From Leptolyngbya sp. FACHB-321 (GTDB taxonomy: Bacteria > Cyanobacteriota > Cyanobacteriia > Leptolyngbyales > Leptolyngbyaceae): a DNA stretch of 64,000 nucleotides. Numbering within the stretch: the stretch's first letter is position 1; each line of letters starts with the position of its first letter. Location of the stretch: contig NZ_JACJPI010000073.1 of the NCBI RefSeq assembly GCF_014695975.1, positions 62,001-126,000 of the forward strand, written 5' to 3'. Below are positions 49,200 to 63,005 of this stretch, piece by piece. Under the pieces are notes generated by a model, which ran no database searches, was not told where the DNA came from, and worked only from the letters and a program-made list of their open reading frames with translations. A program made the translations under genes and the position numbers.

Positions 49200-52100
49200 G
49201 TGGTAGAGAAAAGCATGCAAGATTCGTACCCACTTTCGCCGATGCAGCAGGGGATGCTGTTTCACAGTCTTCATGGGCAGCAGACTGGAGTAGATCTTGA
49301 GCAGATGGTCTGCACATTGCATGAATGTATAGCAGTCGAACCATTGATTCAGGCATGGCAGCAGGTTGTAGCGCGTCATCCAGTCTTAAGAACCAGTTTT
49401 CAATGGGATGGGTTGGAAGAACCCAGGCAACTGGTGCAGTCAAGTGTCTCCTTGCCTTTTACGCAGCATGATTGGCAAGGTTTATCGGTTGCAGAACAAG
49501 ACGATCGCCATGCCCTGTACTTGCAGACCGATCGCCTGCGTGGGTTTGACCTGGCTCAAGCCCCCCTTATGCGTCTTGCCTTGTTTCGGTTGGCTGACAC
49601 TGAGTTTCGGTTAATCTGGACGTTTCATCACATTCTGCTAGACGGGCGCTCGGTGACAGTGCTGCTACAGGAAGTGTTTGCCCTTTATGAAGTGCTTTGT
49701 CAGAATCAAACGCTAGCGCTGGCAACCCCTCGACCCTATCAAGACTATATTGAGTGGCTACAGCAGCAGGATCGATCGACCGCAAAAGGGTTCTGGCAGC
49801 ACCAACTCAACGGCTTCTCAACACCAACGCCGCTGCTGCCACCCCAAGCATCAAGCCAGTTGCTCGACCAACCCGGACATGGAGAAGAGCAGCTTTGCCT
49901 CTCGGCAGCATTAACGACAGCGTTGCAATCTCTTGCCAAACAGCAGGACATTACGCCTAATACGATCGTTCAGGGTGCCTGGGCATTGCTTTTAAGCCGT
50001 TATAGTGGCGAAGCCGATGTTGTGTTTGGAGCAACTAGAGCCTGCCGCCAATCGTCGGTTGACGGAGCCGACTCAATCACTGGGCTACTAATCAATACGC
50101 TGCCCGTCAGAGTTCAGGTGCCAGCAGAGGCAGCGTTACTGCCCTGGCTAAAAGCACTGCGATCGCAGCACATTGCTGTCCGTGACTACGAGCATACGCC
50201 GCTAGTAGATGTGCAGGCGTGGAGTGAGGTGCCGGGCGGCATGCCGCTGTTCGAGAGCCTGGTCGTGTTCGAAAACTATTCACTTAATACGAAGCTACAG
50301 CAACAGGGCAGCAACTGGCAGCATCGCGAGTTTCAACTGCATGAGCAACCGCCACTGCCGCTAGTGCTGATTGGGTGTCTGGATGCCGAACTGGTGTTGA
50401 AAATTTCGTACGATCGCCGTCGGTTTGATCAAGCCGCCATCCTGCGCTTACTGGGGCACCTCCAAACCTTGCTAACCAGCATGATTACGAACCCAGAGCA
50501 ATCTTTGGCAGAGTTGCCGTTGGTAACAGAAGCCGAACGGCACCAACTGCTGGTGGAATGGAACGATACAGCAGTCGACTATGCTCAAGCGACCTGTTTG
50601 CATGAACTCTTTGAAGCACAGGTAACGCGGAACCCCGATGCGATCGCGGTGGTTTACGAAGCGCAACAGCTTACCTATAACGAGGTCAATCGTCAGGCAA
50701 ACCAACTCGCCCATCACCTGAAAGCGCTGGGGGTGCGTCCGGGCACCTTTGTCGGCGTTTACTTAAGTCGTGACTTGGAGATGATTCCCACGCTGCTGGG
50801 CATTCTCAAAGCTGGTGGAGCTTATGTTCCGCTGGAACCAACCTTTCCCCAAGCACGGGTGCAGTGGATTCTCGACTCCCTAGACGTAGGCTGGGTTGTA
50901 ACGCAGCCGCTGCATCGATCGACTTTTGAAACACTCCAAACGCAACTGCCAAGACTGGAGCATTTGATCTGCTGCGACACAATGGTGATCGAAACGGGCG
51001 ATCGAGGCTGTGATCAAACACCAACTGGGCTAAAGGTATGGCAACAGTCGCACCTGTGCCAGCAGCCAACTGCAAACCTACCCAAGCAGGGCAGCGCTGA
51101 TGATACTGTTTACGTGATCTTTACCTCTGGCTCTACGGGCACACCGAAGGGAGTTGTCGTCCGGCATCAGCCCGTCATCAATTTAATCGAGTGGGTCAAC
51201 CGCAGTTTTAACATCACTGCAACCGATCGCGTGTTGTTCATCACTTCACTCTGCTTTGACCTGTCTGTGTATGACATCTTTGGGCTACTGGCAGCGGGTG
51301 GCTCAATTCGAGTTGTGTCCAGTGAGGCTGTACGCGATCCGGCGGCGCTGCTGCATATTCTGTGCCATGAACCCATTACCTTCTGGGATTCGGCACCACC
51401 TGCCTTGCAACAGCTTGTGCCTTTTTTCTCCAACCTAAAGGACGAGCGATCGCAGCTACGGCTGGTCTTTATGAGTGGCGATTGGATTCCAGTTACGCTG
51501 CCTGATGCGCTAAAAGCAACGTTTCCTGGTGTGGACGTAATTTCGCTAGGTGGAGCGACTGAGGCAACGGTCTGGTCGAACTTCTACCGCATTAACGACA
51601 TCGATCCAAATTGGACTAGCATTCCCTACGGCAAGCCTATCCAGAACGCCCAATATTATGTGCTGGATGCTCGCCTGCGACCCTGCCCGATCGGGGTGAC
51701 AGGTGAACTCTACATTGGTGGCGACTGTCTGGCATCGGGCTACACTGATCCAGTTAAAACGGCAGAACGGTTTCTGCCACACCCGTTTCAGCCATCATCG
51801 CAGGCGCGGCTGTACCGAACAGGCGATTTAGCGCGCTTTTTTCCCGATGGCAACATTGAGTTTTTGGGTCGCATCGATCATCAGGTGAAGATTCGTGGCT
51901 TTCGGATTGAACTGGGCGAAATTGAGGCTGTGCTTGCTCAAAATGCAGCCATCCGAGTGTCTGTCGTGATGGCACGGGACGATCAACCTGGTGAAAAACG
52001 TCTGGTTGCTTACGTTGTACCACGCCAGCAGCCAGCACCCACGATCGCTGAACTGCGCCAGTCCCTCAAGGAAAAACTGCCGGATTACATGCTGCCATCC

Positions 52101-53462
52101 GCGTTCGTCTTGCTGAAAGAGCTACCCGTCACGGCAAACGGCAAGCTCGATCGCGCAGCGTTACCGGCTCCCGAAAGTGTCTTTGCAGACGATCGACGGG
52201 CTTCGCTGTCTATGACAACGGGTAAGAGTGAGTCAGAGGTAGCAATTTCGTTTGTAGCGCCGAGAGATGAGCTAGAGCGTCAGTTAGTTGCGATCTGGGA
52301 AGGTGTTTTGCAAATCAAGCCGATCGGCATTCATGACCACTTCTTTGAACTGGGCGGTCATTCGCTGTCAGCCGTACGCGTGTGGTCGCAGATCGAAAAA
52401 ACGCTTGGCAAACATCTGCCGCTGTCAACGCTCTTTCAGGCACCCACGATCGGAGCACTGGCAACCTGTCTTCGCCTGGAAGTAGCACCATCCGCATCTA
52501 GTACAGCCCAAATTGGTGCAGCCCAAGTTCGTATGGCTCAAGCCGATGTAGCTCAAGGTGGTGCAGCACTGTCAGACTTATTACCCAGCGCGACATCTAT
52601 CACTCCGTCCCTGGTCGTCATTCAGCCTGGTCAACCAGCAAGCGGTAAACCACCGTTGTTCTGTATTCATGTTTTAGGTAGAGGGCTGAAGTATTACCTC
52701 CCGCTCGTACGCCATCTTGACCCAGACCAACCTGTGTATGGTCTGGCAGCTCACATGGCTGGAGAAGCGATCGCCATCGATCGTGTTGAAGCTCTGGCAG
52801 CGCACTACAATCGGCAAATGCAGGCGCTACAGCGCCAGGGTCCCTACTTACTGGTGGGAGTTTCCTTTGGTGGCTTGGTAGCGTACGAGATGGCACAGCA
52901 ACTGACGGCACAAGGGCAACAAATTGCCTTCCTGGGTTTGATCGATACATACCCGTCGATCGACAACCAGCCTCTTTTAAGGCATCTGGTGAACGATCGG
53001 GCGACCAAGCATTGGCACAAAATCAAGCAGTCTGGTCTTCCTTACCTGCTGAGAATGATCAAAGCGCAAGTTCGCTGGCGTACTCAAGATCTATTGGAGG
53101 CACTATGGCATGGGTACTGCCATGCCAGCACTACCTTCTGCCGCCTTACAGGCTTGCCGCTATCCGACAAAATCACGGATTTCAACTACGAGCAAGAAAA
53201 CCAGCAGATTGCTCATCGCTACTGTATCCGTCGCTATGATGGTCGTGTCGCGTTGTTTAAGGCAACTGAGCGACAGAATGTGCCTCACACCCTGATTGAC
53301 AATGAACTGAGCTGGCAGCAGTTAGTCAAAGAGGGGTTAGACGTGCATCATATCCCTGGCGATCATCTAGGGATGCTGAAGGAACCCTATGTGCAAAAGC
53401 TGGGTAACGCTTTGCGAGGCTGTCTTACTGAAGCAACCGCCCCTTCTAACAGCAAACATTAA
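49200..53462 (+). CDS. Single-module non-ribosomal peptide synthetase (C-A-PCP-TE)
   Basis: This 1420-residue protein has a condensation domain (about 8-430; HHILLDG at 143-149), an adenylation domain (about 465-985; SGSTGTPKG near 641, YRTGDL near 871, NGKLDRA near 979), a carrier domain with the phosphopantetheine serine in GGHSL near 1053, and a thioesterase with GVSFGG near 1220. GTG 49200 is the frame start, and ATG 49215 also fits. Reading the binding-pocket positions by eye gives roughly D-L-Y-D-F-S-L-V-W-K, closest to cysteine-type codes (D-L-Y-N-L-S-L-I-W-K). No tailoring, transporter or second NRPS gene adjoins. The condensation domain implies an upstream acyl or peptidyl donor encoded elsewhere. 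Confidence 0.96.
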   Translation: MVEKSMQDSYPLSPMQQGMLFHSLHGQQTGVDLEQMVCTLHECIAVEPLIQAWQQVVARHPVLRTSFQWDGLEEPRQLVQSSVSLPFTQHDWQGLSVAEQDDRHALYLQTDRLRGFDLAQAPLMRLALFRLADTEFRLIWTFHHILLDGRSVTVLLQEVFALYEVLCQNQTLALATPRPYQDYIEWLQQQDRSTAKGFWQHQLNGFSTPTPLLPPQASSQLLDQPGHGEEQLCLSAALTTALQSLAKQQDITPNTIVQGAWALLLSRYSGEADVVFGATRACRQSSVDGADSITGLLINTLPVRVQVPAEAALLPWLKALRSQHIAVRDYEHTPLVDVQAWSEVPGGMPLFESLVVFENYSLNTKLQQQGSNWQHREFQLHEQPPLPLVLIGCLDAELVLKISYDRRRFDQAAILRLLGHLQTLLTSMITNPEQSLAELPLVTEAERHQLLVEWNDTAVDYAQATCLHELFEAQVTRNPDAIAVVYEAQQLTYNEVNRQANQLAHHLKALGVRPGTFVGVYLSRDLEMIPTLLGILKAGGAYVPLEPTFPQARVQWILDSLDVGWVVTQPLHRSTFETLQTQLPRLEHLICCDTMVIETGDRGCDQTPTGLKVWQQSHLCQQPTANLPKQGSADDTVYVIFTSGSTGTPKGVVVRHQPVINLIEWVNRSFNITATDRVLFITSLCFDLSVYDIFGLLAAGGSIRVVSSEAVRDPAALLHILCHEPITFWDSAPPALQQLVPFFSNLKDERSQLRLVFMSGDWIPVTLPDALKATFPGVDVISLGGATEATVWSNFYRINDIDPNWTSIPYGKPIQNAQYYVLDARLRPCPIGVTGELYIGGDCLASGYTDPVKTAERFLPHPFQPSSQARLYRTGDLARFFPDGNIEFLGRIDHQVKIRGFRIELGEIEAVLAQNAAIRVSVVMARDDQPGEKRLVAYVVPRQQPAPTIAELRQSLKEKLPDYMLPSAFVLLKELPVTANGKLDRAALPAPESVFADDRRASLSMTTGKSESEVAISFVAPRDELERQLVAIWEGVLQIKPIGIHDHFFELGGHSLSAVRVWSQIEKTLGKHLPLSTLFQAPTIGALATCLRLEVAPSASSTAQIGAAQVRMAQADVAQGGAALSDLLPSATSITPSLVVIQPGQPASGKPPLFCIHVLGRGLKYYLPLVRHLDPDQPVYGLAAHMAGEAIAIDRVEALAAHYNRQMQALQRQGPYLLVGVSFGGLVAYEMAQQLTAQGQQIAFLGLIDTYPSIDNQPLLRHLVNDRATKHWHKIKQSGLPYLLRMIKAQVRWRTQDLLEALWHGYCHASTTFCRLTGLPLSDKITDFNYEQENQQIAHRYCIRRYDGRVALFKATERQNVPHTLIDNELSWQQLVKEGLDVHHIPGDHLGMLKEPYVQKLGNALRGCLTEATAPSNSKH

Positions 53463-53475
53463 GGGCTGCTGGCGA

Positions 53476-55071
53476 TCAACTCAATTGGACAACGGGTTGA
53501 TCGTCAATCAGCGTTTGCAATGCTAGGAGGTCTTCTACCGTAATGCGGAGAAAGCGCTGCTCATCAACGCGAAACAGCACCTTGACTCGATCGCTCCCTG
53601 GATGTCCCGGTGGCTCCAGTTTGGCAATCTTGCGGGCACCGTCACGATCGTTGAGCGGCTGTACCTGATGGCTGCTGCCAAGGTGCCGAGTTACCAGACG
53701 ATCGCCATCAAAGTAAACTTCTGTTTGATTGGCTTCTACACCCAGTTCGCCAATGACCAGCTCGATGCTCGGTTGATTATCCAAAGAGGCACCCAGCCGC
53801 AACTCCACTGGATCGCTCATGGGATAGGCTTGCCCCGCTTTAATCAGTGGATGCCAGTTGTGGCAGTTTTGGCGACGATCCCAATAGCGAATGCCGTAGC
53901 CGTGATAGAGAAAGTCTTTGAGTTCAATGCCCTGGCTTAGTTGCAGCGCCCCATGCGCGATCGCCTCAAAGGGTTTTTCGCAGCGCACCTTACTAGCTTC
54001 AAAATGGTGCTGCACCCAGCTCTGCACCGCTGGTATCTGAGCCGTGCCACCCACTAGCAACACGGCATCAATATCAGTTGTTTCTAAGCCCTGCCGTCGC
54101 GCTTGCTGCAACACTTGCAACAGGCAATCATCCAGACGCTCAAAAAACTGGTGCTGTTTCAGGATGTCTTCAAATTGCGTACGACTTAGTTGCAGTTCGT
54201 AGCTCTCAAAGGTTTCATCGTCAAAGTACACTTCTTGCGCCTGGGTTTGCAGCGAAAGCTGAATTTTGAGCCGTTCTGCCAATCGTGTGGTCAGTGGCGT
54301 TATCGCTAATCCTTGCGCCTCAGCAAAATAATCTACTAACCAGTTATCGATGTCCGATCCGCCCAGATTTTGTCCTGCCTTCGCTAATACTCTGGCTGTC
54401 TTGGGTGTTTGCCCTGACTGTTCCGCAAACGACTTTTGCCCCCATTTAAGGATAAAGCCGAGCGGTTTTGGCTGTGCCTGAGCACGATCGAGCCGTACCA
54501 ATGAGAGATCCAGCGTGCCACCCCCAAAGTCGATGACTAGCAGCGTTTCTTGGTCGGCTAACCCATAACCCAGTGCTGCAGCCGTTGGCTCATCCAGCAT
54601 GCGCACCTGTTCTACTTGTAGCGACTCGCACACGTGCCCTAGCCAGAGACGATATGCCTCAAAGCTATCTACCGGCACGGTAAAGACGATCGACTGTCCC
54701 GCTTCCGGTTCAATGGTCTTAAGCTGCTGTACAAGCTGAGTGAGAAACCATTGCCCTACTTGCTCAAACCGAACGGTACAGCCGTCTAGCTCAGGCAAAA
54801 AGCCCTGCACACTGGAACCAATGCCGCGCTTGAAGTTACGAAAGAAACGCGGGTCTGTAGATAAATCAAGGGCACGATCGCGCACGGTTTGACCAACCAC
54901 TACTGTGCCCTGACGCGCCTCTTGCACGTAAAGCAAACTGGGAATGAGCGGTGGGTTCTGACCAGAGCGATCGCTGATGCCTGGTAAAGAGAGTGTTTCT
55001 GGTTGCTGCGTTGCACGATTCCACCGGGCAATAACGGTGTTGCTAGTCCCAAAGTCAATTGCGATTCCCAT
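53476..55071 (-). CDS. Hsp70-like actin-fold ATPase
   Basis: This 531-residue protein has the Hsp70 phosphate and adenosine motifs: GIAIDFGTSNTVIARW at the N-terminus, LLVIDFGGGTLDLSLVRL near residue 178 and DAVLLVGGTAQIPAVQSWV near 335. Only about 120 residues follow the ATPase domain, ending in a beta-rich segment, so it is shorter than DnaK (about 635) and lacks the usual helical lid. Cyanobacteria carry several such Hsp70-like proteins. It ends 14 bp from the NRPS stop in convergent orientation. Confidence 0.9.
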   Translation of the reverse strand: MGIAIDFGTSNTVIARWNRATQQPETLSLPGISDRSGQNPPLIPSLLYVQEARQGTVVVGQTVRDRALDLSTDPRFFRNFKRGIGSSVQGFLPELDGCTVRFEQVGQWFLTQLVQQLKTIEPEAGQSIVFTVPVDSFEAYRLWLGHVCESLQVEQVRMLDEPTAAALGYGLADQETLLVIDFGGGTLDLSLVRLDRAQAQPKPLGFILKWGQKSFAEQSGQTPKTARVLAKAGQNLGGSDIDNWLVDYFAEAQGLAITPLTTRLAERLKIQLSLQTQAQEVYFDDETFESYELQLSRTQFEDILKQHQFFERLDDCLLQVLQQARRQGLETTDIDAVLLVGGTAQIPAVQSWVQHHFEASKVRCEKPFEAIAHGALQLSQGIELKDFLYHGYGIRYWDRRQNCHNWHPLIKAGQAYPMSDPVELRLGASLDNQPSIELVIGELGVEANQTEVYFDGDRLVTRHLGSSHQVQPLNDRDGARKIAKLEPPGHPGSDRVKVLFRVDEQRFLRITVEDLLALQTLIDDQPVVQLS

Positions 55072-55172
55072 GCCGTCTCAAATCACCTTGCATACGTGGC
55101 TCTTTTAAGACAATAAATGATATGCAAGCATTACCCTCACTCTTAGGGCATTCTAATCGCGCTGCTTTAACT

Positions 55173-55232
55173 TGTCTTTTCTGAAAGCATGGCTCAGGCG
55201 GGGCTTGAACCTGCGACCTTGGGCTTATGAGT
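55173..55232. repeat. Left attachment-site copy (attL-like), 3' fragment of tRNA-Met
   Basis: The 60 bp match 59761-59820 at 59 positions; the one difference is C for T within the T-loop part. The sequence then diverges (GCGGCAATAAAAGC), so only the anticodon-loop to 3'-end part of the tRNA is present. Confidence 0.92.
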
Positions 55233-55384
55233 GCGGCAATAAAAGCACTGAAAGCCTTAGTAGAAGGACCTTTCGGGCTTTAGCATATTAACGCTAGAGC
55301 TTGTGACCTGACCACCAAACTACTTTACCAAGAAACTACCAATGATAGAACAGTAGAGTAGTTAAAAATAATTTGAAAGCAGAT

Positions 55385-56839
55385 ATGAAAGGCTTTGAGC
55401 ATGTTGGACAATGGTGGCTTCCAGAATTCCCAAATAGAAAAGTATCAGGCACTCTAAAGTTTGAACCAGCCACAGGAGGAAAGCTAGAGCTAATCGGCTC
55501 TTTAACTGACGAAAGTCAAAGTGATCAACCATCATTTCCGCCAATCATATTAGGTGAGTGCTTAGCAGGAAAAATCACTTTACTAAACAACAGCTTTAGT
55601 GAATCAAAATTAACTCTTGAGGAAATTGGCCTAACAATTTACCATACAAGGCTTATCTGTGATGGCATACATCTTCAAAGCGAGAGCGACTTAAAGTTCT
55701 TAAGTATTTCAGTCCATTACTCATACCTTAACCAATGGTTAGGAGTAAGGGGTTTTAATATTGATAGATCTTCTATTAGGTATGAGCAAGATGTTACAGT
55801 TACTCAAATACACGTTAACGAAAATATCAAGCTTTCTCTTGATATTAGAACGCGCAAAAAAGAAGAATGGATGGAAAATGTTCAATTGTCTCAATTATCC
55901 TATATAACAATTATTTTTTCTGAATTGCATTTATTAGAAGAGGCTGAAAAAGTTCTACGCCATCTAAGAAATTTTCTAAGCTTTGCAGTCATGTGCCCTG
56001 TGTATCCACTTGACGTGACTGGAGTAATGCTAGGGGAATACTTTGATTCCATGGATGGAACTTATAAAAAAGGCTATATTCCTGTTAAAATCTTTCGTTC
56101 GCTCTCAAATGCTTCAGGAAAATATTCAGGATTCATTCCAAGGAGCGCAGGTGGATTCTATTCTAATATTCTATTTGCCTACCCAGGAAACCCCGAAAAG
56201 TTTGAGATTTTAATTAAAAACTGGTTTGAAAAATCAGACTGGCTAGAAATTGTATGCGAACTATACTTTTATACTTTTTATGAGAAGCTTTATCCTCAAA
56301 ATGAATTTTTGATTTTAACTCAAGCATTAGAGGTTTTTCATCGCAAGAATCCTAAGTTTAAGCAGTATGAGAGCTCGGAAGAAGCTCATAAAGAAAAAAT
56401 TTCTCGCATCTTAAAAGTTGTCCCAGCAAAAGATCTCGATTGGCTAGAACGTAGACTTGAGCACAGCAACGAAAAACGATTAAGGAAAAGATTGCAAGAT
56501 ATTTTAGCCTCTTTGCGAAGCGTTATTAAGCAACTCTCATCAAGTAGGAGGGGCTTTTCTCTTATTTCAAGCGCAAAAAGTCAAAGCAGTCTGAGTCAGC
56601 AAATTGCTTTTAATAGGAATTGCTTAACTCACTATGATGAAAGCTGCAAAGAGAAAGCCGCAGACAATCGGCAGCTTTATTACATGGTAGAGAAGCTAAA
56701 AATTATTATTTGTTTGTCTTTGATGAAGGAACTGGGCTTTGAAGAAGAAGAAATTACAGTATTGCTGTCTGAGAGCAATATTGGTCTTTTAATGGACTCG
56801 GCTTTGACTGAATCTTACGACCTTAAGTTTTTTGACTGA
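55385..56839 (+). CDS. apeA: ApeA-like HEPN-domain anti-phage protein
   Basis: This protein has 484 residues from ATG 55385 (a TTG at 55373 adds four). The N-terminus GQWWLPEFP followed by beta strands matches the N-terminal domain of ApeA, a HEPN-containing single-gene anti-phage system. The C-terminal half is helical and carries the HEPN RNase motif R-x4-H as RNCLTH (R411, H416) within QIAFNRNCLTHYDE. HEPN nucleases cleave RNA; ApeA is thought to cut tRNA on infection and cause abortive defence. Codon use is clearly AT-rich compared with neighbours, which supports transfer. It lies next to the left att copy, inside the tRNA-borne island. Identification rests on motif memory. Confidence 0.8.
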   Translation: MKGFEHVGQWWLPEFPNRKVSGTLKFEPATGGKLELIGSLTDESQSDQPSFPPIILGECLAGKITLLNNSFSESKLTLEEIGLTIYHTRLICDGIHLQSESDLKFLSISVHYSYLNQWLGVRGFNIDRSSIRYEQDVTVTQIHVNENIKLSLDIRTRKKEEWMENVQLSQLSYITIIFSELHLLEEAEKVLRHLRNFLSFAVMCPVYPLDVTGVMLGEYFDSMDGTYKKGYIPVKIFRSLSNASGKYSGFIPRSAGGFYSNILFAYPGNPEKFEILIKNWFEKSDWLEIVCELYFYTFYEKLYPQNEFLILTQALEVFHRKNPKFKQYESSEEAHKEKISRILKVVPAKDLDWLERRLEHSNEKRLRKRLQDILASLRSVIKQLSSSRRGFSLISSAKSQSSLSQQIAFNRNCLTHYDESCKEKAADNRQLYYMVEKLKIIICLSLMKELGFEEEEITVLLSESNIGLLMDSALTESYDLKFFD

Positions 56840-56841
56840 AC

Positions 56842-56866
56842 CTCCTAATCTGGAGATTAGGAAGTA
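56842..56866 (+). terminator. Short hairpin after the ApeA-like gene
   Basis: TCCTAATC and GATTAGGA pair over a TGGA loop four bases past the stop. The stem is only 8 bp and no T-run follows. Confidence 0.45.
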
Positions 56867-57145
56867 GGCTCTCCAACTGCTAGGCGAAGACCTAATTACT
56901 TCGCTGGACACAATTTGGACTAAATCACCGTTGAGTTATATTTTGAAATCCCGATTCTCTCGTTCCTGCTAGCTCCTATGCGTAGGCTAGGATGCCGATT
57001 CTTTCGTTGGTTAGTTGCCTTCAGCAACTCACCAGACGTTTTCAGGGTGTTTCAGCAACTAACCTTGATAACAGCAGCACTGTTTTCGCCATTGCGTCAG
57101 CGCTCACCACCTCCGTGGCGGCACTACCAAGCACTGACAGCGCCA
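56867..57145. other. Gap between ApeA-like and Crp genes
   Basis: About 280 bp without a supported gene. Two overlapping plus-strand frames over 56978-57279 run mainly across the Crp gene end and show no protein-like features. Confidence 0.4.
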
Positions 57146-57862
57146 TCAGCTCCCACTCACTACGGCTGCAAAAGCACCATGAACGACCCCATAACACTCA
57201 CAGACAAAGTCTTCTAAGCCCGTCCGATCCACTAGCGTCATGCATCCACGCTGGTAACGCACCCAACCCGCTTGACTGAGGACACCTGCTGCCACGGTCA
57301 CACCGGCACGACGCACCCCCAGCATTTTACTGATGCTCGCATGCGTCATGGGGAACGTGTCTGCTCCCAAACTATCACTGACTAGCAAGAGCCAACGTGC
57401 CAGACGCTCTTCGGTTGTATGAAAGCGGTTGCACGCGCCGCCTTGTGCCGCTTGCGTCAGCATGGCTTGCATATAGCGGAGCAGCAAGCTGTGCAGGAAT
57501 TCCAGACGCTTGAACTCGGTCAGCAGTTTCTCCGCAGGCAGTCGCCACGCTTTGCCTGTGACCTGCACCACCGCCTGCTGGCTGTGACTTATACCACTAA
57601 GCACCACTGGCAACCCAGCCATACCTTCTTGCCCCACCAAGCCCACTTCCATCGTGGCACCATCCTTCAGTGAAGACACCAAGGAAATGAGCGCTTGCTC
57701 CGGAAAGTAAACATAGTCGATCGGGCAACCCATCTCGTAGATGGGTTGCCCGATCGACAACGTGACCTGTTCTAAAGCGGGTTGTAAGCGCTGATAGACG
57801 TCGGCTGGCAAGGCTGCGAGCAGATGATTGCTTGATCGGGGAGTGGTTTGAGGTGCTGACAT
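57146..57862 (-). CDS. Crp/Fnr family transcriptional regulator
   Basis: This 238-residue protein has an N-terminal cyclic-nucleotide-type beta barrel (about 12-125; PIDYVYFPEQALISLV and VGLVGQEGMAGLPVVL) and a C-terminal winged helix (about 160-225; THASISKMLGVRRAGVTVAAGVL). The barrel lacks the canonical cAMP-binding arginine/serine motif and the Fnr cysteines, so its effector is unknown. Coding base composition is more GC-rich than the adjacent ApeA-like gene. It carries an internal 43-bp palindrome (57716-57758) encoding residues near 35-49. It is convergent with the ApeA-like gene and lies in the island. Confidence 0.9.
   Translation of the reverse strand: MSAPQTTPRSSNHLLAALPADVYQRLQPALEQVTLSIGQPIYEMGCPIDYVYFPEQALISLVSSLKDGATMEVGLVGQEGMAGLPVVLSGISHSQQAVVQVTGKAWRLPAEKLLTEFKRLEFLHSLLLRYMQAMLTQAAQGGACNRFHTTEERLARWLLLVSDSLGADTFPMTHASISKMLGVRRAGVTVAAGVLSQAGWVRYQRGCMTLVDRTGLEDFVCECYGVVHGAFAAVVSGS
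57716..57758. repeat. 43-bp palindrome with 20-bp perfect arms inside the Crp gene
   Basis: GTCGATCGGGCAACCCATCT and AGATGGGTTGCCCGATCGAC are perfect reverse complements separated only by CGT. The palindrome is read through in frame, encoding the GQPIYEMGCPID stretch of the regulator, and contains the CGATCG core of HIP1 at both ends. Confidence 0.97.
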
Positions 57863-58168
57863 CTGATGTCTTGGGGTGTGTCAAGTTGAGCAAACGCAGC
57901 CGACGACGCCCCGGGGAGAGTGCTAACGCTCGACCTCAGTCTCCAAAGGTGGGTTTCTCACTCAGTAGCGGTCTGCACTGACTAACCACCGGCATTAACA
58001 GGCAGTGTTAAGTACCACTAATAGCCTTTCCCGCTGTCACTGTCAGTACGGCGCTGGACAAAGGGTCCGGCAACGCTTTAAGCCTGTTGTGCCCTCTGTT
58101 TGCCTCTCTGCCTCATGACGCAACCCACCACACATAGGGCAAACTAGAGGGATCTTCGAGGATTCTCT
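57863..58168. other. Intergenic region inside the island
   Basis: These 306 bp between the divergent Crp and the split small gene contain no supported gene. It probably holds both promoters; none is distinct. Confidence 0.4.
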
Positions 58169-58468
58169 ATGACTGCTTTAAATCTTACGGCAATTCCCAA
58201 TGGTATCGGCTCAGTAGAAGAATTAGCAACTTGGTGCGGCATGGTGCTGAGGGAGACTGCCCCAACGCAGGCGATATCGGAGGCTGTGAATGTAGTCAAC
58301 TTCCAATCCGACTTGTAGGAGGCGGTTAATCCAGACGGGAAGCCGATTATCGTGCTTAGGTTTGTGTTTGAGCAGTTGCCACCTTCAAGCGTGACGGGTA
58401 AGCCCTGGAACGCTACAGTTCCCATTCTTCGCAGCGCTGAGAGCCCAAGCTATTACCTGTCGAACTGA
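58169..58468 (+). pseudogene. Small gene interrupted by an in-frame amber codon
   Basis: From ATG 58169 the frame reads MTALNLTAIPNGIGSVEELA for 49 residues, meets TAG at 58316-58318, then stays open for another 49 codons (EAVNPDGKPIIVLRF and onward to SPSYYLSN) up to TGA 58466. The reading frame carries protein-like sequence on both sides of the stop. The protein resembles small hypothetical proteins of cyanobacterial mobile regions. The next gene follows 28 bp later. Pseudogenisation by one point mutation is the simplest reading; amber read-through is an alternative. Confidence 0.65.
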
Positions 58469-58496
58469 AGCCCCGTAACACTTTTGAGGATTGATT

Positions 58497-59558
58497 ATGG
58501 TCTTTGCTGGTGAGGGCTTACGTGCGCCATCGTTGCCGCCTAGAGTCAACAACAGTCCGCCGCCGGTAACGAGTCGTGCTGTTGCCGGTGCGTTACTCAG
58601 TGCTGCTGCTGGAGTTGCAGGGACGGTTGGGCTACCGTCTGCTCCGCTCAATGCGCCATATGCAGGAGCGCCACCGCCGATTACTCGTGATGCGCCAACT
58701 CCTTCATCTAGCGCGGTTAATCCTCTACTGAGTGGGGCAACCGGCGGTCGTGCGCCTGGCTTGGGTGGATCGATGCCAGGGGTAAGATCGCCTGCTGCTG
58801 CAATGCCCCGAAGCTTGCCAGCGATGCCGTCATCAGTTGCGACACGCGGTCCTAGATTAGCTGGTATGGGTCCAGCCCTGGCGGATGCAGGATTAAGGCG
58901 ATTAGGGGAAGAATTGCAAGGCACATCGGGAAGCCCCTTCTATGGGTCACCAGAGCAGCAGTTGAAGAACGATCGCTTCGCTGAAGCGCAGAGACAAAGT
59001 AACGATTACCTCAGGGAGTCTGCCAAGCAGGCTGCGCGAAATTTTGGAGACTTTCTCAAGAATCCTCTAGGTAATAGGGGGAGAGAATCCAGTAACAGGA
59101 AAGGGGATACATCCCAGACCCCTATTAAAAAGGGTAATGGTAGTGCTCCATCTGGCAGCCAGGTAGGGAAGATGTACCGTGTAGACGGCACTGTGAGCAA
59201 TGGGATAAGCGGTTCTAACCCTTTTAGCTACACACTACCAGGTTCAATCGGACCGATTGTCACCAGTAAATACAGCGTTAACGGTTTTGAGTATTTAGAT
59301 GCCCTTTTTTCTTCAGGAGTCGGTGTGCAGTCACTGCTAAGTGGTGGTGACAGCAAGGGCGGTGCAAGTGCTGCAATTACTGGCATTATGCCCATAGACG
59401 GCATCCCCGACCCTGCAATGCCCGCAGATCCTGATTCTTTCAGGGGCGGGGACGGGCTGGCACTGGTCGATCGTCACCAGGTCAGAGAGTTCTTGCCCAT
59501 CAAAAACACGCGCCCACACCTTTATCACCTTGACTCTAGAGGCTGGAATGGACCCTAA
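58497..59558 (+). CDS. Pro/Gly/Ser/Ala-rich island protein of unknown function, C-terminus altered
   Basis: ATG 58497 has GAGG 7 bp upstream. The 353-residue product is Ala/Pro/Gly/Ser-rich up to about residue 130, then has a charged segment (NDRFAEAQRQSNDYLRESAKQ) and a beta-prone stretch (NPFSYTLPGSIGPIVTSKYSVNG). No signal peptide or known domain is seen. From about 59500 its frame runs out of phase across the integrase remnant, so the last 20 residues or so are a junction artefact and the native end is lost. The style recalls phage structural or tail-associated proteins, but that is only an impression. Confidence 0.6.
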   Translation: MVFAGEGLRAPSLPPRVNNSPPPVTSRAVAGALLSAAAGVAGTVGLPSAPLNAPYAGAPPPITRDAPTPSSSAVNPLLSGATGGRAPGLGGSMPGVRSPAAAMPRSLPAMPSSVATRGPRLAGMGPALADAGLRRLGEELQGTSGSPFYGSPEQQLKNDRFAEAQRQSNDYLRESAKQAARNFGDFLKNPLGNRGRESSNRKGDTSQTPIKKGNGSAPSGSQVGKMYRVDGTVSNGISGSNPFSYTLPGSIGPIVTSKYSVNGFEYLDALFSSGVGVQSLLSGGDSKGGASAAITGIMPIDGIPDPAMPADPDSFRGGDGLALVDRHQVREFLPIKNTRPHLYHLDSRGWNGP

Positions 59559-59649
59559 AGACGTGGCTTATCTGGTAGGCAATTCGGCAGAGGTCATCTA
59601 CAAACACTATGCTGCCGTCAAGCGCAATCTAGTTGTGCCTGATTTTTAA
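59500..59649 (+). pseudogene. C-terminal remnant of a tyrosine recombinase (integrase)
   Basis: In the frame beginning at 59500 the sequence reads SKTRAHTFITLTLEAGM, then DPKDVAYLVGNSAEVIYKHY, then AAVKRNLVVPDF and TAA at 59647-59649. This is the last 50 residues of a phage-type integrase: the box II-like TRxHTFIT region and the nucleophile tyrosine in KHYA. The rest of the gene is absent and the frame upstream belongs to another protein. It lies 111 bp from the right att copy. Confidence 0.85.
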
Positions 59650-59760
59650 GTTCTCACAAATAGAAAAGGCTCCAGGAAGGCATTACAAGCCTAGACCTTG
59701 GGGCTACCCCCATTTTTTGAGGGAAACAGCAAACTCCAGAATCGATCGTCATTTTGGAGG

Positions 59761-59820
59761 TGTCTTTTCTGAAAGCATGGCTCAGGCGGGGTTTGAACCT
59801 GCGACCTTGGGCTTATGAGT
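59761..59820. repeat. Right attachment-site copy (attR-like), overlapping tRNA-Met
   Basis: The 60 bp include 17 bp downstream of the tRNA and its 3' acceptor, T-arm, variable loop and anticodon loop. The left copy is at 55173-55232. Confidence 0.92.
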
Positions 59821-59849
59821 CCCCTGCTCTACCACTGAGCTACTGAGCC
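59778..59849 (-). tRNA. trnM: tRNA-Met (anticodon CAU)
   Basis: Read on the minus strand, the 72-nt sequence folds as a cloverleaf: acceptor GGCTCAG/CTGAGCC with discriminator A, D-arm GCTC/GAGC, anticodon loop CTCATAA, and T-loop TTCAAAC. CAU occupies 59815-59817. The anticodon stem has mismatches at its ends and the T-stem an A-C pair, both conserved in the left fragment. CCA is not encoded. The CAU anticodon also allows lysidine-modified tRNA-Ile2, which I cannot exclude. Confidence 0.88.
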
Positions 59850-60116
59850 GTAACAAATAACTTGATTAATTTAGCATAAGACAACAAGCGATCGCTATAG
59901 CCCGATGCTCACTCTTAACTTCTTTTCTCTCAGTTTTTCGCTGTTGCCTGTCAATTCAGAGAGAATGTGTTTGTCAGTGGTGCAGTCATGATAGTCTTGC
60001 ACAGAATCGCTTGACTGTTATGGGTTAAACGCATAATCTCCTGCAAAACGGGGAAGATGCTTCAAGTAAACCCGATCGCAAATGGTCGTGGCATTAGATC
60101 ATCGAGGCAATATTTC

Positions 60117-60632
60117 ATGGCTATTGTAGATTCTAAAGGTCGCTTATTTGGCAAGGTCAGCCTTTTAGATATTGGTGCAGCGCTGCTAGTGCTGCTGGTG
60201 ATTGTTGGTGTGCTGTTACCCAGTTTCACAGGTGCTCAACTTAGCTCCAACCTCAAACCAGTTGAGGTGGATGTCATTGTTAGAAGTGTTGGCTCCAAAG
60301 ACCCTAAAACCTTGCTCAAAGAAGGGGACAAAACAAATCTGATTATTCGGAATCAGCCCTTTGGTGCAGTCACCCTTAAAGCAGTGAGAGAATTGCCTCG
60401 GAATATAGCAGTGCCTCAGCCCGATGGCTCTACTAAAGCGCTGCCAGATCCCCGACCCGAAGCGGGTCTGACAAAAGATTTTTTGGTAACGGTTGCGGGC
60501 GATGCAAATATGACTGACAACGGACCGTTGTTAGGTAATAGCAAGATCAAAGCTGGCACTAAAATTGAGCTTGAAGGCTTTACCTATGACTTTGCAGACC
60601 TGTATGTCATTGATGTGCGGGTTGGCGCTTAG
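60117..60632 (+). CDS. DUF4330 family protein with one membrane anchor
   Basis: I prefer ATG 60117 because GAGG lies upstream; the frame is open to 60057. The 171-residue product starts MAIVDSKGRLFGKVSLLDIG, has a single membrane helix at about 18-38 (GAALLVLLVIVGVLLP), and a beta-rich domain with VDVIVRSVGSKDPKTLLKEGD. This is the DUF4330 family, found in cyanobacteria and firmicutes; the function is unknown, and association with the cell envelope is likely. Confidence 0.87.
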   Translation: MAIVDSKGRLFGKVSLLDIGAALLVLLVIVGVLLPSFTGAQLSSNLKPVEVDVIVRSVGSKDPKTLLKEGDKTNLIIRNQPFGAVTLKAVRELPRNIAVPQPDGSTKALPDPRPEAGLTKDFLVTVAGDANMTDNGPLLGNSKIKAGTKIELEGFTYDFADLYVIDVRVGA

Positions 60633-60666
60633 TCGCTTTTAGGAGCTAGCTTTTAGAAGACTGGCT

Positions 60667-61563
60667 CTACTTCAGCAAAGCGAGAAATCTGCGGATAAGG
60701 GCGATCGATACTGCTGGTAGCTCCAATTGTGGTGTCAGCCCTACGTCCTCAATCACTTGCAGCCCGCGAATTGCTTGTGGGTTCAGTGCTGCCAACCGCT
60801 GACCAATTTCAGGGCCCGTAAACTGCGATCGCCGACCCCAGATCATTGCAGTTGGCACAGTCAACTGAGCAATATAAAGCGAAAGGTCAAAGGATAAATC
60901 GCCTCGCACAAATGCCAGTGCAGCATATTCAGCATTGGGCTGTTGGGCAGACTCCAAGTATGCCTCGACAATTTCGGGAAAAATGCGATCGGGTTGGGCA
61001 AACTGCCGCTGTTCGAGGAAGTTGCGGATACCCCAACTTACGGCAATGCCAGTGCTGTACAGTAAGCGATCAAGCACGGGCGTGCTGACCAGTTGAGCAA
61101 AAAATGTGCGCGTATAATCTTGACCAAAATCAGACAGACCCGCAGGCGTAGTCAAAATCAGCGATTGAAACAAGTCTGGACGGAGGATCGCTGCCCGAAT
61201 GACGATCGCCGCCGTCAGCGATGATGCCACAACGGGCACGGACCCCTCACACGTTTGCTCTAGAAACTCAATAATTGTCGTGATGTAGTCATCTACCTGA
61301 TAGTTCCGTTCTGGATGATCCGATCGCCCCCAGCCAATCAAGTCGGGTGCCAGAATGCGATAGTCCGACGCGAAAGCAGGATAGACCTTCGACCATTCGT
61401 AAGCGGAAGAACCACCGCCAAACCCGTGGAGAAACACAAGCGTTGGTTTACTTTGGCGATCGCCATCCCCGCTTGACCAGAGGGATGCGTCAGCGGTGTC
61501 ATAAACCATCGTGCCAAGCGTGGTGACGATGGAACGTTGACAAAACCCAGGTGGGAGAAACAT
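60667..61563 (-). CDS. Alpha/beta hydrolase-like protein with a degenerate active site
   Basis: This 298-residue alpha/beta-fold protein has LVFLHGFGGGSSAYEW as oxyanion region and LAPDLIGWGRSDHPE as the following strand. The nucleophile elbow reads VASSLTAA, with serine present but the flanking glycines lost. The catalytic histidine position reads DVGLTPQLE, so leucine stands where histidine is expected. The fold is intact and length normal. It may be an inactive binding or scaffolding protein, or use a different residue. It lies between DUF4330 and the APC permease. Confidence 0.87.
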   Translation of the reverse strand: MFLPPGFCQRSIVTTLGTMVYDTADASLWSSGDGDRQSKPTLVFLHGFGGGSSAYEWSKVYPAFASDYRILAPDLIGWGRSDHPERNYQVDDYITTIIEFLEQTCEGSVPVVASSLTAAIVIRAAILRPDLFQSLILTTPAGLSDFGQDYTRTFFAQLVSTPVLDRLLYSTGIAVSWGIRNFLEQRQFAQPDRIFPEIVEAYLESAQQPNAEYAALAFVRGDLSFDLSLYIAQLTVPTAMIWGRRSQFTGPEIGQRLAALNPQAIRGLQVIEDVGLTPQLELPAVSIALIRRFLALLK

Positions 61564-61688
61564 GGTAAACCTTACGGAGGGATAAGGAGATGGGGATCGA
61601 TTACCGCTCTTGATACCTCTATTTCAGCACGGGTGGCGATCGCTGCACTCTACTTACAGGTTCATTCTGGCAGGTAATAGCCCAACCT

Positions 61689-63005
61689 CTAGGTAGCGCT
61701 CCGTTTCATAAACGCATTTCGCACAAAGACAAGAATAAAACCTACACCAGCCAAGGCTGTTGCCAAAATGTGGCTTTCCCTAGACGCGAAGGCAATGAGG
61801 ACAAGGTTAGAAAGAAGAGCGAGAACTGGAATAATGGCAGGGACTTGAAACCCGTCTGCATTACCTTCTCGACGTTTAATGATCAGCAGTGACAAGTTAA
61901 CTAAACAGAACATAGTGAGAATGAGGGTTGCGGTTGTGCCTGCCAAAAATTGCAGCGGCACTGACAATGCCAGAAAGATTGCGATCGGCAAAATCACGAC
62001 GATCGTTCGGTAAGGCGTGGCGCGGATTGCGTGCAGTTTACTCAACCAGGCAGGCAGCAACCCATCACGCGACATACCAAAGAGCAACCGTGACGCTGTA
62101 ATAAAATTCAGCAATGCCGTATTTAGCACCGCAAACAGCGCGATGAACGTAAAGATGACACCTGGAAAATTTGGCTGTGCCCGTAGCACCACATCCAGCA
62201 ATGGCGCACCAGAAGCAGACAGTGCTGCAGGATCTAAGACTTGAGCCGCCAGCCAGGAAACCAGAACATAAATGACTCCAGCGATACCCAGTGATAACAG
62301 AACGGCTCTTGGGACATTGCGCTCAGGGTTTTTCACCTCTTCCGCTACATTCACAATGTCCTCAAAGCCAATGAAGGCGTAGAAGGCAAGCGCAGCGCCT
62401 TGAAAGATGGCAATCCAGCCGATGTCTCCACTGGTTGCAGTTGCAGTCGCAGCAGCATTACCAGCACTACCACCCCCGCTCAGAAAGAGGACTGAAACTA
62501 AGATAACGATGAGTAGCCCCGAAACCTCAAGCGTTGTACAAAAAATGTTAAGGCTGGACGATTCCTGCATCCCCCGAAAATTGATAAACGCAAGACCGCT
62601 AAAGAGCGCCAGGATAACTAACCATTCTGGAAAAATGGGAGCAAACTTGAACAAATAACCTGCGAACGCTTTCGAGATAACTGCCATCGAAACAACACAG
62701 GTGCAAAACATGAGCCAACCGACAATGACAGAGAGCCATTCGGTACGAAACGCCCGCTGCACAAAGATCGCCACGCCGCCGCTAAATGGCAAACGACTAC
62801 CGAGTTCGGCATAACTCAACGCTGTCAGCGCTGCGACTGACATCGCCACTAAAAACGAAGCCCAAACAAGTGCCCCAGAAAGCCCAGCGATTTTGCCTAC
62901 AACGGCATAAATGCCAGCACCTAAAATATCGCCAACGCCATAAATAACTAGCGTGGGTAAGCTAAACACCCGTTTTAATGAATCTGCCGCTTCGATCTTT
63001 TCCAT
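61689..63005 (-). CDS. APC superfamily amino-acid permease
   Basis: This 438-residue, 12-helix transporter starts at ATG 63005. The first helix has the family motif GVGDILGAGIYAVVGKIAG, and the intracellular GFEDIVNVAEEVKNPERNVPRA sequence marks the APC/CAT group. Such permeases import amino acids or polyamines by cation symport or exchange. No enzyme gene nearby points to a substrate. Confidence 0.92.
   Translation of the reverse strand: MEKIEAADSLKRVFSLPTLVIYGVGDILGAGIYAVVGKIAGLSGALVWASFLVAMSVAALTALSYAELGSRLPFSGGVAIFVQRAFRTEWLSVIVGWLMFCTCVVSMAVISKAFAGYLFKFAPIFPEWLVILALFSGLAFINFRGMQESSSLNIFCTTLEVSGLLIVILVSVLFLSGGGSAGNAAATATATSGDIGWIAIFQGAALAFYAFIGFEDIVNVAEEVKNPERNVPRAVLLSLGIAGVIYVLVSWLAAQVLDPAALSASGAPLLDVVLRAQPNFPGVIFTFIALFAVLNTALLNFITASRLLFGMSRDGLLPAWLSKLHAIRATPYRTIVVILPIAIFLALSVPLQFLAGTTATLILTMFCLVNLSLLIIKRREGNADGFQVPAIIPVLALLSNLVLIAFASRESHILATALAGVGFILVFVRNAFMKRSAT

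Follow-up and report, generated by a model that had tools for sequence, protein, structure and literature searches.

A divergent ApeA gene, intact within a decayed tRNA-Met integrative element of a cyanobacterium

Introduction

The ApeA protein that Gao et al. tested in 2020 reportedly came from E. coli. Passages in two reviews recount that it was tested as a defence system in that study (PMC7699616, PMC10952713), and the family, in which an Apea-like HEPN domain is combined with an ApeA-NTD1 domain (Anantharaman 2013, Gao 2020), apparently works as a single gene. Sections of the 2013 HEPN survey describe HEPN RNases as metal-independent, define their active site as an Rx4-6H motif with a polar residue after the arginine and an acidic residue upstream, and give a protein of Cyanothece sp. 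PCC 7424 as an example of ApeA-NTD1 (PMC3710099). According to parts of PMC13405049, HEPN RNases act as dimers and a retron HEPN protein cleaves tRNA; the reference list of the same article holds a 2026 preprint whose title states that deoxydinucleotides activate ApeA. Cleavage of the tRNA anticodon by Cas13a is described in a passage of PMC12373285. Our search for literature on ApeA together with cyanobacteria yielded nothing beyond PMC3710099, and passages of PMC11706625 mention neither ApeA nor HEPN.

Here, we describe an ApeA gene in a 64,000-nucleotide stretch of DNA (the window) from the cyanobacterium Leptolyngbya sp. FACHB-321. Its protein has the same two domains, in the same order, and the same catalytic motif as the described ApeA proteins; it differs in sequence, its identity to the homologues found being at most about one third, and its function is predicted from sequence. 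The gene is intact and encodes a divergent, otherwise ordinary member of a widespread family. We consider it likely that this cyanobacterial species gained the gene as a single-gene anti-phage system, lodged today in the remains of a tRNA-Met element, which would sense infection, cut RNA and arrest growth.

Results

The features of the locus are collected in Table 1. The ApeA frame is open from an ATG at 55385 to the stop codon ending at 56839. An alternative TTG at 55373 would give a protein of 488 aa; we prefer the ATG because, in seven of ten aligned relatives, whose starts were likewise picked mechanically, the start falls in the column of the ATG or one earlier. Both Pfam domains were matched over the whole length of their profiles, PF18862 ApeA_NTD1 at 4.8e-35 (121.8 bits against a cut-off of 25.5; positions 1-271 of 271) and PF18739 HEPN_Apea at 7.7e-25 (88.3 bits against 24.4; positions 1-136 of 136), so far above the cut-offs that the ApeA match is not due to chance. 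Among PADLOC profiles, PDC-S58 matched at 4.5e-77, near full-length, and Cas13-ApeA at 1.1e-39; NCBIfam and PHROGs profiles gave no match to the protein. The PDC-S58 model, which stands for a candidate defence family, also fits the ApeA proteins of Planktothrix (7.9e-181), an Archaeoglobi bin (3.4e-123) and Vibrio (1.3e-91), and PDC-S58 is probably another name for the ApeA family. The Pfam domains, the PADLOC profiles and the predicted fold described below support the original prediction of an ApeA-like HEPN protein at this position.

Table 1. Features of the ApeA locus and the surrounding tRNA-Met island (positions in the window)
Feature	Position	Strand	Details	Basis
attL-like direct repeat	55173..55232		43 nt of the tRNA-Met 3' part (from the anticodon stem on) and the 17 nt that follow; 60 nt in all, 98% identity with 59761-59820	
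Leader between attL and ApeA, possible stem-loop	55233..55384	+		RNA fold
ApeA-family gene, 484 aa	55385..56839	+	Residues 5-280 ApeA_NTD1 (mostly beta); 309-456 HEPN_Apea with E316, R411-NCLT-H416	Pfam, PADLOC, alignment, AlphaFold2
Dispersed host-genome repeat, ~100 bp, downstream of ApeA	56921..57018		Overlapped by matches at 8 other sites of the genome, 71-86% identical	
Crp/Fnr-like regulator gene	57146..57862	-	G+C like that of the window	PF13545, PF00027
Pseudogene of 101-117-aa element protein	58169..58465	+	One in-frame TAG within the conserved part; 71% identity with the 101-aa L077 query	
Possible N-terminal remnant of 880-aa element protein	58491..59459	+	29%, E 0.012 (weak); same order after the 117-aa gene; ORF continues into the integrase remnant	
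Tyrosine integrase C-terminal remnant, frame-shifted	59460..59649	+	66% identical to residues 234-301 of the 301-aa L078 integrase; residues 240-257 in another frame	
attR-like direct repeat	59761..59820		60-nt partner of 55173-55232	
tRNA-Met(CAT), intact, integration target	59778..59849	-		ARAGORN; Rfam RF00005, 62.3 bits

Both motifs from which an ApeA layout had been predicted were located: WWLPEFP lies within GQWWLPEFP at the N-terminus, and RNCLTH in the C-terminal part corresponds to R411-H416 in the numbering from the ATG. In an alignment of the protein with 94 homologues, E316 is found in all 95 rows, R411 and H416 in 94 each and N412 in 91; for two of the three sets from which the homologues came, the search had relied in part on an RN..TH pattern that contains the motif. 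A set drawn with the NTD profile alone comprised 16 loci besides the window's own, four weak or fragment places being left out of the count; R-x4-H was present in 11 of these and R-x5-H in two, and the motif was absent from three short or truncated frames. R411-N412...H416 and the upstream E316 agree with the Rx4-6H definition in the cited section of PMC3710099.

An AlphaFold2 model of the whole protein (11 rows; pLDDT 81.5, pTM 0.80) has a beta-rich N-terminal and a helical C-terminal half, and the C-terminal HEPN part modelled alone (40 rows) reached a pLDDT of 90.7 and a pTM of 0.87. Neither the C-terminal nor the whole model had a Foldseek match in the PDB at E 0.001. When 791 Foldseek candidates for the C-terminal part were aligned in a second look, the 11 best PDB rows scored Z 5.8-7.3 and the next, unrelated row 4.0. 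Nine of the 11 are titled HEPN or MntA-HepT, with AbiV at Z 6.0; the remaining two, 5yep and 1wty, we take to be of HEPN or HEPN-MNT type. These Z-scores are modest, and the tool cautions that for helical bundles values below about 13 may reflect a common arrangement; we accept a predicted HEPN-like fold because a single family fills the top rows and the profile match and the motif agree with it. Structural rows for the N-terminal domain (Hcp, PilZ; Z up to 6.6) were at background level and were set aside, leaving that domain with no clear solved relative. The best rows of a PDB sequence search, an RxLR effector (E 0.0022) and a ribosomal protein (E 1.5), are not credible relatives.

The HEPN-MNT toxins and AbiV (PDB 7ae2, 6m6u and 9bj6; Z 6.0-7.3) share the helical bundle of the modelled C-terminal domain and, by their titles, work with MNT or a second component; to our knowledge, NTD1 is absent from both. 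The closest solved folds belong to HEPN toxins of HEPN-MNT pairs, and the carrier is an integrative element; both would suit an HEPN RNase acting as an addiction or stress toxin that stabilizes the mobile element, and not as a phage sensor. We regard this as very improbable, given that the large N-terminal domain is common to the rest of the ApeA family and that the AT-rich module of leader and gene holds no other ORF of at least 60 aa save an overlapping 60-aa antisense frame, a smaller antitoxin being possible.

The leader folds better than its shuffled versions (z -2.93; two of 200 shuffles equally good), a result for one of two stretches folded. Such a leader, like the match to PADLOC models named Cas13-ApeA, would also be expected of an AbiF- or Cas13-type HEPN enzyme controlled by RNA, for example by an RNA from 55233-55384. 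However, no copy of the leader was found among 57 other genomes searched, the abiF motif RF03085 had no Rfam match within 53000-62000 at E 1, nor did the leader match any Rfam family at that threshold, and we know of no AbiF protein that includes ApeA_NTD1; control by RNA thus appears extremely improbable. A promoter search found none upstream of ApeA on its strand, and the five matches in the region compare with 3.9 expected.

Duplication of the 3' part of a tRNA at the two ends of an island is the usual footprint of a tyrosine integrase. At this locus, the repeat pair bounds a 4.6-kb island, with the right copy overlapping tRNA-Met(CAT). One congener (G391) has similar partial copies of the attL-like repeat at places away from tRNA genes. 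Of the integrase, only some 60-70 residues of the C-terminus are left, in two frames. The pseudogene at 58169-58465 at first seemed to hold two stops; the second precedes the likely start, since relatives start later, which leaves one inside. A second site in the genome matches the Crp/Fnr-like region (57118-58065) at 79% identity. An 84% match to a congener contig had suggested that 56921-57009 is a conserved left end of the element; this was rejected, as the stretch is the dispersed repeat. As judged from its sequence, the island is a decayed integrative element at tRNA-Met in which ApeA is the best-preserved gene. The predicted att repeats around ApeA are therefore real and lie on the tRNA gene, but the element to which they belong is degraded, and the island is probably no longer mobile by itself. 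No empty site was found for comparison, the matches to the DUF4330 gene and to tRNA-Met lying on different contigs in all six congeners. Elsewhere in the window, 49200-53462 encodes a 1420-aa protein that, by eye, we take to be a non-ribosomal peptide synthetase module (condensation, adenylation, carrier, thioesterase).

The coding sequence is AT-rich, as had been noted: its G+C content is 0.362 (0.318 at third positions) against 0.502 for the window, and that of the leader is 0.393. Four stretches of the remaining island between 57118 and 59636 have values of 0.515-0.564; strong AT-richness is limited to the ApeA module. The original prediction had also taken base composition as a sign of recent transfer. 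Across the family, however, ApeA is lower in G+C than its flanks at 72 of 73 loci, the average difference being 8.8 points, in a count that included near-copies, considered only flanks of at least 3000 bases and first dropped 14 of 108 picked rows shorter than 380 aa. The gap at our locus exceeds this average. Low G+C is thus a habit of the ApeA family that gives no date, and we ruled out composition as proof of recent transfer.

A gene whose composition is unlike that of the window, among neighbouring element genes that are remnants and with promoter matches not above chance, might be a dying passenger, its frame still intact although the island has decayed, and unexpressed or non-protective in its host. 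The integrase and the 117-aa gene are broken, whereas the 484-codon frame and all catalytic residues have been preserved, and we consider such a passenger unlikely.

Recent gain nevertheless remains the likely history on other evidence. Within the family of the host, ApeA_NTD1 was found in one of 42 genomes searched, the host's own; it was absent from the other 41, which include six congeners and some incomplete assemblies, and this absence supports a recent gain better than low G+C does. What did not hold was the view of ApeA as an enterobacterial speciality that is unusual in cyanobacteria. Across the phylum, ApeA_NTD1 exceeded its cut-off in 15 of 386 sampled genomes, our own included, and six of the best 80 relatives listed from named genomes are cyanobacterial, the others ranging from archaea to Pseudomonadota; the Cyanothece example points the same way. 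Viral contigs held 15 ApeA loci, and named phage records held no ApeA relatives.

No close orthologue of the protein was found among the homologues searched. The nearest full-length ones are those of a cyanobacterium (L006, genome G197; 34% identity) and of Archaeoglobi and ANME-2c bins (L087 and L088; 32%), and they fall in a tree group with weak support. The broken frame of L091, from a Thermoplasmatota bin, is 36% identical in its best segment and was dropped as short. An enterobacterial homologue is 28% identical over 141 residues of the HEPN part, and a Klebsiella relative, used as a DNA query, had no match in E. coli genomes. Two genomes of the same class encode ApeA proteins identical to the Sphaerospermopsis and Planktothrix ones. 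A quick tree, built from 75 of the 95 rows, places the window protein in a mixed group with weak support, and the six labelled cyanobacterial rows require at least four label changes; repeated transfer of ApeA would be the simplest reading, and paralogues could give the same pattern. Among the 25 of 74 families listed for neighbour proteins of ApeA loci (116 of 218 proteins scanned, with no control set) were the PADLOC families IetA, PifA, GajB, HamB and PD-T4-3, each in one member. We also considered tRNA/att islands as a general carrier of ApeA and discarded the idea: a tRNA lies in the flank of six of 94 homologue loci, and its last 20 nt do not recur exactly, many of the flanks being short.

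Relatives of the carrier were found at other tRNA genes. In four of six congeners an integrase-related frame adjoins tRNA-Met; it is 301 aa long in L078 and L084 and shorter in L080 and L081, the last of these running to the contig end. The contig G391:C99 (L077, 1-15651) carries a 15.4-kb relative between two tRNA-Met att copies and ends just past them, and L207 is a 12.4-kb element at tRNA-Glu whose 87-bp repeat is exact. These integrative elements of cyanobacteria, located at tRNA genes (L077, L079, L207, L202, L198; window 58169-59649), carry an integrase, a primase/helicase and partly shared proteins with no assigned function. A relative of the 117-aa protein occurs in 13 of 97 genomes, the host's included. 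The element integrase, helicase and exonuclease match phage families, structural and lysis matches are weak, and the L207 primase matches 189 phage records; the 522-aa element protein had no match in the phage records or viral contigs searched. A 20.8-kb circular plasmid of Tolypothrix sp. PCC 7601 (L218, NZ_CP064893.1) encodes an integrase, an AAA ATPase and an exonuclease, together with a partial relative of the 880-aa element protein (22% of its length, 36% identical); the element family may therefore exist in plasmid form as well.

In the window, ApeA and Crp occupy the interval from the outer att to the 117-aa gene; in G391:C99 this interval is empty, and in G391:C54 it contains NmrA- and TetR-like frames (named by eye) followed by a degenerate 117-like stretch. 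These three cases, all from one genus, are suggestive of a cargo slot. The operon of L207 has the opposite orientation. A wider proposal, which we put forward tentatively and hold to be rather doubtful, is that of a little-described family of tRNA-integrating cyanobacterial carriers, roughly 12-15 kb long, with a primase/helicase, a shared operon for proteins with no assigned function, the 522-aa one among them, and exchangeable cargo between the outer att and that operon: ApeA here, NmrA/TetR-like genes in a congener.

Discussion

Our data are consistent with a model in which this ApeA acts as an RNase that answers phage infection. The dimeric and metal-independent nature of HEPN RNases (passages of PMC13405049 and PMC3710099), the deoxydinucleotide title and the tRNA cleavage described for a retron HEPN protein and Cas13a together lead us to propose a path from DNA breakdown through NTD1 to tRNA cleavage and arrest. 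HEPN domains would pair to form a metal-independent RNase site, which NTD1 would hold off until phage infection supplied a small signal. That signal would most likely be deoxydinucleotides, released by phage-driven DNA breakdown and bound by NTD1. The activated HEPN pair would cut cellular RNA, probably at tRNA anticodon loops, and growth would stop before the phage matured. On this model, ApeA would have outlived the mobility of its carrier. The trigger of this ApeA may differ from the reported one, because its identity is only 34% to the nearest full-length homologue and 28% to an enterobacterial protein in the HEPN part.

Two habits of reasoning are corrected by this locus: ApeA is not an enterobacterial family, and its low G+C is a family trait and no clock. 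Our work extends by one divergent member a family whose trigger is just beginning to emerge, in hosts where phage control matters ecologically. A cyanobacterial ApeA with about one-third identity to the nearest homologues would probe the generality of the deoxydinucleotide trigger.
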